From an uncultured Pelagibacteraceae bacterium (GTDB taxonomy: Bacteria; Pseudomonadota; Alphaproteobacteria; Pelagibacterales; Pelagibacteraceae), in assembly GCA_902602655.1 (NCBI GenBank), contig CACKRM010000002.1, forward strand, positions 1 through 64,000: a DNA stretch of 64,000 bases. Reading direction: 5' to 3'. Under the pieces are notes generated by a model, which ran no database searches, was not told the origin of the DNA, and saw only the letters and a program-made list of their open reading frames with translations. The stretch's first letter is position 1; each line of letters starts with the position of its first letter. The translations under genes were made by a program, and so were the position numbers. Below are positions 62,909 to 64,000 of the stretch, piece by piece.

Positions 62909-62980
62909 AAAATAAGTATAATCAAATAATTATTCTGTATATATATATTTAACAAATAAGTGCAAAATAAGGAGACAAAA
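62909..62980. promoter_or_regulatory. divergent promoter region and strong ribosome site for the microprotein
   Basis: A 72-base spacer with TATATATAT near 62938-62949, a plausible -10 area on either strand. AAGGAG at 62969-62974, six bases before the ATG at 62981, is one of the best Shine-Dalgarno sequences in the window. Confidence 0.6.
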
Positions 62981-63064
62981 ATGGGTTACCCAAAGAAGCA
63001 TCGAGGTAGAAGAAAAATTGGCTCAAAAAAAAGAAGAGCTAGAAAAAGAAACAAAAGAAAATAG
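62981..63064 (+). CDS. 27-residue extremely basic microprotein (ribosomal-protein-like)
   Basis: ATG GGT TAC CCA AAG..., ending TAG: 27 residues, of which 16 are Lys or Arg and one His (MGYPKKHRGRRKIGSKKRRA then RKRNKRK). Preceded by AAGGAG at ideal spacing, and followed after 21 bases by the next gene. Composition and size recall small ribosomal proteins such as bTHX and the basic tail of the mitochondrial mS38/COX24 group; I cannot prove membership. Very likely an RNA-binding, ribosome-associated protein expressed at high level. Confidence 0.75.
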   Translation: MGYPKKHRGRRKIGSKKRRARKRNKRK

Positions 63065-63085: not shown

Positions 63086-63781
63086 ATGAAAGAGATTGCA
63101 CAAATCCGAAGGTTGAGTTTGTGGATTTTTCTTATTCCATTGTTAGCAATAAATTTATGTTTAATAATTTCGCAAAACCCTGAATTGCTCGAAAATACCA
63201 TTTTCTCAGTTGATCAAATTGGACGATCTGGTTTTTCTATACCTTATCTTGATGGTAGTTTATCAATAAGTAGAGCCTCTAGAACATATCCTCAATATTT
63301 GATTTTTAAGCCTGCAATGTTTTTAACTGCTGCTCTTTTGTTTTTTTACTGGAAAAATAATAATCAGTTAGTAAATAATCTTAATTCATCTAATTATAAC
63401 TATAAATTTAAAACATTTGGAATTTTATCTGCGGTTTTTTTAGTAATTCACTCTATATTGCTTGGTGTAAAATTTGATATTCAAATTTATAAGCTTTTTA
63501 GAAGAGTTGTACTTTTGCTGTTTATTATATTTGAAATAATTGCTCAGGGAATTTTGGTTTACCACTTTTATAAACTCAAACTTAAATTAGAAAAATTAAT
63601 CTATAAAAAAGTTTTAACTTTAAAGATTATTTTGGTAATTATACTTTCCTCAGTAGGAATTTTAAGTCTCCCTATTTTGGTAACTAAAGGGAACACACAC
63701 TTCAAACATGCGTTAGAATGGAATTATTTTGTTGGTGTTGTAACATTTTATTTGTTTTCAAGGTTTTTTTGGAAGAAGTGA
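63086..63781 (+). CDS. six-helix membrane protein, possibly Frag1/PGAP2-like
   Basis: A 231-residue membrane protein with helices at about residues 10-30, 72-90, 108-128, 138-160, 176-198 and 209-228, and a long loop after helix 1 (31-71) bearing IGRSGFSIPYLDGSLSISRASRTYP. A conserved-looking FKHALEWNYFVG lies before the last helix. Layout (six helices, large first loop, HxxEW-like motif) resembles the Frag1/DRAM/Sfk1 family, which is a guess. Starts 21 bases after the microprotein gene and may be co-transcribed. The stop overlaps the A-run that forms the end of the structured RNA on the other strand. Confidence 0.7.
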   Translation: MKEIAQIRRLSLWIFLIPLLAINLCLIISQNPELLENTIFSVDQIGRSGFSIPYLDGSLSISRASRTYPQYLIFKPAMFLTAALLFFYWKNNNQLVNNLNSSNYNYKFKTFGILSAVFLVIHSILLGVKFDIQIYKLFRRVVLLLFIIFEIIAQGILVYHFYKLKLKLEKLIYKKVLTLKIILVIILSSVGILSLPILVTKGNTHFKHALEWNYFVGVVTFYLFSRFFWKK

Positions 63782-63782
63782 A

Positions 63783-63960
63783 AAACTCACAGCTTCTATC
63801 CTTTTCAGGATAGAAACGTGAAGTTTTGGTTCGTCGTTGTAGGCGCTACCGCCGAACCTTCCCGATCAACCATTTTAGCGCTACTCAGTTGATCTTTCTG
63901 CCCTTTAAGCTTGAACCTCTCGGTTTTTCCTTAAATGGCCAGTTAAGAGTTGCCTCTTAA
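63783..63960 (-). ncRNA. candidate structured small RNA
   Basis: Read on the minus strand the region folds into five successive hairpins: TTAAGAG-GCAA-CTCTTAA (63943-63960); an arm with AACC-GAGA-GGTT at its tip (63914-63925) within 63902-63938; GATCAAC..GTTGATC (63864-63894); GGTTCG..CGAACC with inner GGCG/CGCC (63828-63858); and TTCTATCC..GGATAGAA (63794-63815), followed after GCTGTGAG by T5. Two loops are GNRA only on the minus strand (GCAA, GAGA), which sets the strand. TTGGAT-N17-TATTAA at 63989-63961 is a possible promoter, though its start point would fall inside hairpin 1. I do not recognise 6S, SRP, tmRNA or RNase P. No protein reading frame explains it. Confidence 0.65.
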
Positions 63961-64000
63961 TTAATATGATTAAAACATAGTTAATCCAATAATTAAATCA

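Follow-up and report, generated by a model that had tools for sequence, protein, structure and literature searches.

Which product is encoded by a very short, strongly basic reading frame in the window (the whole stretch of 64,000 nucleotides analyzed here), and what would a cell use it for? Few cells on Earth are more abundant than SAR11 bacteria, and this product, one of their most strictly conserved proteins, matches none of the family libraries that were searched. The protein-making machinery probably includes it as a small component that has so far been missed. A sequence-only reading of the window had described a frame of 27 residues with a stop codon and about 60% Lys/Arg, preceded by AAGGAG six bases before the ATG, and both are present (K/R is 16 of 27 residues, or 59%). 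The features of the locus are as follows.

62909..62968, no strand assigned: intergenic region between divergent genes, presumed to hold the promoter; no motif exceeds chance
62969..62974, + strand: Shine-Dalgarno site AAGGAG, 6-nt spacer to the ATG; GGAG in 35/35 same-genus loci
62981..63064, + strand: basic microprotein gene, 27 codons, product MGYPKKHRGRRKIGSKKRRARKRNKRK, stop TAG; kept in the order under strong purifying selection
63086..63781, + strand: downstream neighbor gene, 231-aa membrane protein, weakly Frag1/DRAM-like (17 bits, below the Pfam cut-off)

A metC-type gene (cystathionine beta-lyase-type PLP enzyme) is divergent and starts 72 nt upstream of the microprotein gene. The sigma-70-like promoter match upstream of the microprotein is no better than in shuffled sequence. 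The proposed tight link with the next gene is true of the window, where 21 nt separate the stop codon from the start of the Frag1/DRAM-like gene, but at other loci this gene adjoins the microprotein often and not always.

Comparison of 35 loci from the same genus confirmed that the 27-residue frame is a real gene. Residue 26 (R or K) is the only one that varies in the protein, while 23 of the 27 codons vary in the DNA. Pairwise codon differences amount to 4764 synonymous versus 264 nonsynonymous, against a ratio of 49:194 expected for random single changes; these pairwise counts are not independent of each other, but their direction is overwhelming. Nonsynonymous change within the genus runs at about 1–2% of the synonymous rate. 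The adjacent Frag1-like protein has a mean identity of 74%, whereas the microprotein is near-invariant. Only the genus of the window and some of its relatives have the Shine-Dalgarno site; several other genera and families lack it, so that it cannot serve to define the microprotein family.

The microprotein was found in 219 of the 297 sampled genomes of the order, in 126 of the 150 that are of high quality, and in 6 of 11 genera. Among the matches listed from a named collection, the identical or near-identical contigs are titled Pelagibacteraceae. The C-terminus of mnmA is the usual neighbor of the gene in this family. Absence in close relatives, which the sequence-only reading had named as grounds for rejecting the gene, was looked for and the gene was not refuted: eight family genomes without the frame were tested by profile, and none of the eight has the microprotein and none has a complete mnmA C-terminus (one of them has a contig that breaks off within mnmA). 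Because the adjacent mnmA end is missing as well, the eight genomes seem to lack the frame through incomplete assembly. Where the locus is assembled, practically all SAR11 (Pelagibacter family) genomes encode the microprotein. The sister family f2 of the same order (G025–G036) differs: no microprotein was found in its sampled genomes, though mnmA is present in 4 of the 5 tested, and there is no divergent copy or similar small frame downstream of mnmA. If the protein binds rRNA, this family offers a natural contrast for locating the contact.

Outside SAR11 the protein is patchy. A Pseudomonadota-wide sample gave 2 matches in 399, both of them SAR11. A profile search of the class added three further alphaproteobacterial families (f30, f23, and f127), in which the conserved block is identical. 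A Gemmatimonadales bacterium was among the matches listed from a pattern scan of named genomes, and a profile search of that second phylum found the microprotein in 5 of 249 genomes; these loci are GC-rich, with a G-rich, Shine-Dalgarno-like sequence before the start. The gene neighborhoods are unrelated between bacterial lineages, and none of the bacterial loci examined has the microprotein beside a ribosomal-protein gene.

Copies are also carried by viruses, among them marine phages. A pattern scan of 2.9 million IMG/VR contigs found the block on 26 viral contigs (L249–L274), in versions of 28–40 aa. When the pattern was loosened (H7 plus residues 12–14, or Y3-P4) the same contigs were returned with one chance match that has an early stop; since no real viral copy was added, the invariance of the viral block is not an artefact of the search. 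In one viral group the capsid module is related to that of pelagiphages HTVC023P and HTVC027P (capsid identity of 66–68%), the hosts of phage contigs being assigned by gene similarity only. Here the microprotein gene lies within the virion structural module and its start overlaps the stop of the preceding gene. The same group also carries a GroES-like gene. Other inspected viral contigs encode terminase, integrase, nuclease, DNA ligase or T4-like baseplate genes, as judged by reading the sequences, and the terminase on L252 was confirmed by PHROGs. Cultured phage records gave no copy, whether searched by tblastn with low-complexity filtering or at the DNA level, and the six relatives inspected lack it as well. 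On L267 the microprotein stands next to a 194-aa phage protein (6668–7253) whose N-terminal part resembles the RNA polymerase alpha C-terminal domain, by eye only, and whose PHROGs matches fall mainly over the C-terminal half.

Alignment of 23 bacterial and phage variants revealed 14 identical residues: M1, Y3–K12, G14, S15, and R18. Residue 19 is R or K, residue 13 and all positions after 19 vary, and the length ranges from 27 to 40 aa. The tail from residue 16 is basic and variable in both sequence and length. We define the family as M[GSAP]YPKKHRGRRKxGSxxR[RK] opening a frame of 27–40 aa, which describes the window microprotein and its relatives, and MxYPKKHRGRRKxGSxxR[RK] is retained in all copies. 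The predicted fold is an irregular arm at the N-terminus that leads into a single helix beginning at S15; the AlphaFold2 model built from nine sequences places the helix at residues 15–34 (mean pLDDT 82, pTM 0.40), which for a free basic peptide is a hint only.

Searches of Pfam, NCBIfam, PHROGs and PDB sequences gave no match to the microprotein, and a literature search for the motif YPKKHRGRRKxGS returned nothing. The sequence-only reading had likened the product to bTHX or to mS38/COX24, and this likeness was not supported. The bTHX models (PF17070, TIGR04560, and NF011339) do not match at the frame, with Thermus Thx as the positive control, and neither do the COX24_C/bS22 models PF08213 and NF047430. 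Pairwise comparison against composition-preserving shuffles placed no ribosomal family, including bS22, mS38, eL41, bTHX, and bL37, above its controls; the reference sequences for these five had been verified with PDB chains. When profiles were compared with column shuffles as controls, the new family was not linked to bS22, eL41, bTHX or bL37, and hhalign agrees. Comparison sequences of bL34, bL35, and bL36 were used in both kinds of shuffle test; a resemblance of the window sequence to bL35 (p = 0.003) was dropped, given some 90 tests and its absence from other members of the family. The absence of a library match is in itself weak evidence, because the Pfam and NCBIfam models, which do find Mycobacterium bS22 and Thermus Thx, also miss the structurally proven bS22 of Flavobacterium and Borrelia. 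For bTHX the likeness consists of a length of 27 aa, a start with MG and a basic character, with no HMM match and nothing beyond composition. Likewise eL41/eS32 is a single helix of 25 aa made nearly all of K/R, but it is without the N-terminal arm motif, and sequence and profile shuffles give nothing beyond composition.

We favor, at roughly even confidence, the explanation that the microprotein binds RNA as a small structural protein, most likely as a supernumerary component of the ribosome that represents a new sequence family. The invariant arm, the unrelated neighborhoods, the occurrence in two phyla and in phages, and a size and charge like those of bS22 and bTHX suggest a fixed, universal RNA partner. 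The earlier suggestion of an overlooked RNA-binding or ribosomal-type microprotein is well supported in its general form by conservation, distribution, and phage carriage, but is not supported in its bTHX or mS38/COX24 identity. Counting against a ribosomal role are the lack of a shuffle-passing relation to any ribosomal protein and the lack of ribosomal-protein gene neighbors at the bacterial loci examined. If ribosomal, the protein is an accessory part, because most sampled Pseudomonadota, the sampled genomes of family f2 and most of the second phylum do without it.

The closest competitor, which we consider unlikely, is that the microprotein is a true but highly diverged member of the COX24 family at the bS22/mS38 site, its signal lost in a Lys/Arg-rich composition. 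Proteins of the bS22 (COX24_C/AURKAIP1) family are 28–33 aa long with about 60% K/R, values much like those of the microprotein, and come from short unannotated genes; they have an N-terminal segment followed by a main helix that opens near an S/T residue, as is predicted for the microprotein. The Borrelia bS22, with 28 aa and 61% K/R, remained without annotation until density for it was observed (PMC10618245), and it resembles the microprotein in size, K/R content (61% vs 59%) and failure of annotation. A relative of 33 aa (L222) aligns by eye to Mycobacterium bS22 without gaps, and 41 relatives have no COX24_C match over the cut-off; Flavobacterium and Borrelia bS22 also escape Pfam and NCBIfam. 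Because structurally proven bS22 fail the same models, sequence is no bar to the bS22 site. However, the YPKKHRGRRKxGS block occurs in no bS22, and the profile test joins the Actinobacteria/mS38 and Bacteroidota/Borrelia branches of bS22 (p of about 0.02; hhalign P 0.0017) but not the new family to either branch (p 0.16 and 0.44). Judged by sequence, the microprotein is not filed under bS22, eL41, bTHX or bL37.

It is quite unlikely that SAR11 and other lineages have domesticated an arginine-rich RNA-binding regulator from phages, such as an antiterminator or RNA chaperone. Such an origin would account for the arginine-rich motif, the diverse phages and the patchy occurrence outside SAR11, but invariance over two phyla and phages with unrelated neighbors suggests a universal target, and in the streamlined genomes of SAR11 the gene is near-universal and under purifying selection. 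A small DNA-binding, nucleoid or protamine-like peptide is improbable: despite the high charge and the position in the virion structural module of one phage group, non-specific charge neutralization needs no invariant Y3, P4, H7, G9, G14, and S15, and other phage groups carry the gene among those for replication or nucleases. A secreted antimicrobial or toxin-like cationic peptide shares only the cationic composition and is barely credible for a chromosomal, near-universal gene that is invariant rather than diversifying and whose surroundings showed no leader, export or immunity gene.

For a supernumerary ribosomal protein, the following mode of action may be proposed. The known proteins bTHX, bS22, and bL37 neutralize rRNA phosphate, and the invariant arm would act in their manner, threading into a universally conserved RNA pocket that is most simply rRNA, while the helix would pack along an rRNA groove. 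The first candidate site would be the small-subunit pocket used by bS22/mS38/eL41, which for bS22/mS38 is formed by h2/h27/h44/h45 of 16S rRNA. The phage copy may supply or exchange a subunit during infection, comparable to bS21. Phage-encoded bS21 and bL12 become part of ribosomes and are likewise host-like small basic proteins in pelagiphages and others (PMC6375957), where bS22 and bTHX are not mentioned among phage-encoded ribosomal proteins. The microprotein differs in that its block is that of no known ribosomal protein, and its ribosomal role is inferred. More tentatively, with somewhat less than even confidence, we propose an unrecognized ribosomal protein family that is near-universal in SAR11, common to a second phylum, and carried by marine phages for supply or exchange in host ribosomes. 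A ribosomal role would mean that the SAR11 ribosome is incompletely described by current models and that phages have an unrecognized translation gene; the block shared with a second phylum would then point to a common RNA site.

The window also contains an IMES-2 RNA motif (Rfam RF02035, 160 bits) at 63826–63967 on the − strand, between the Frag1-like gene and mnmA. Genus g9 has it in the corresponding position and g5 in a different one, and it was not found in the rest of the genera tested. A link between the motif and the microprotein was considered and dropped, as IMES-2 is found in three genera only and in one of them lies far from the microprotein gene. The motif can now be assigned to defined SAR11 genera.
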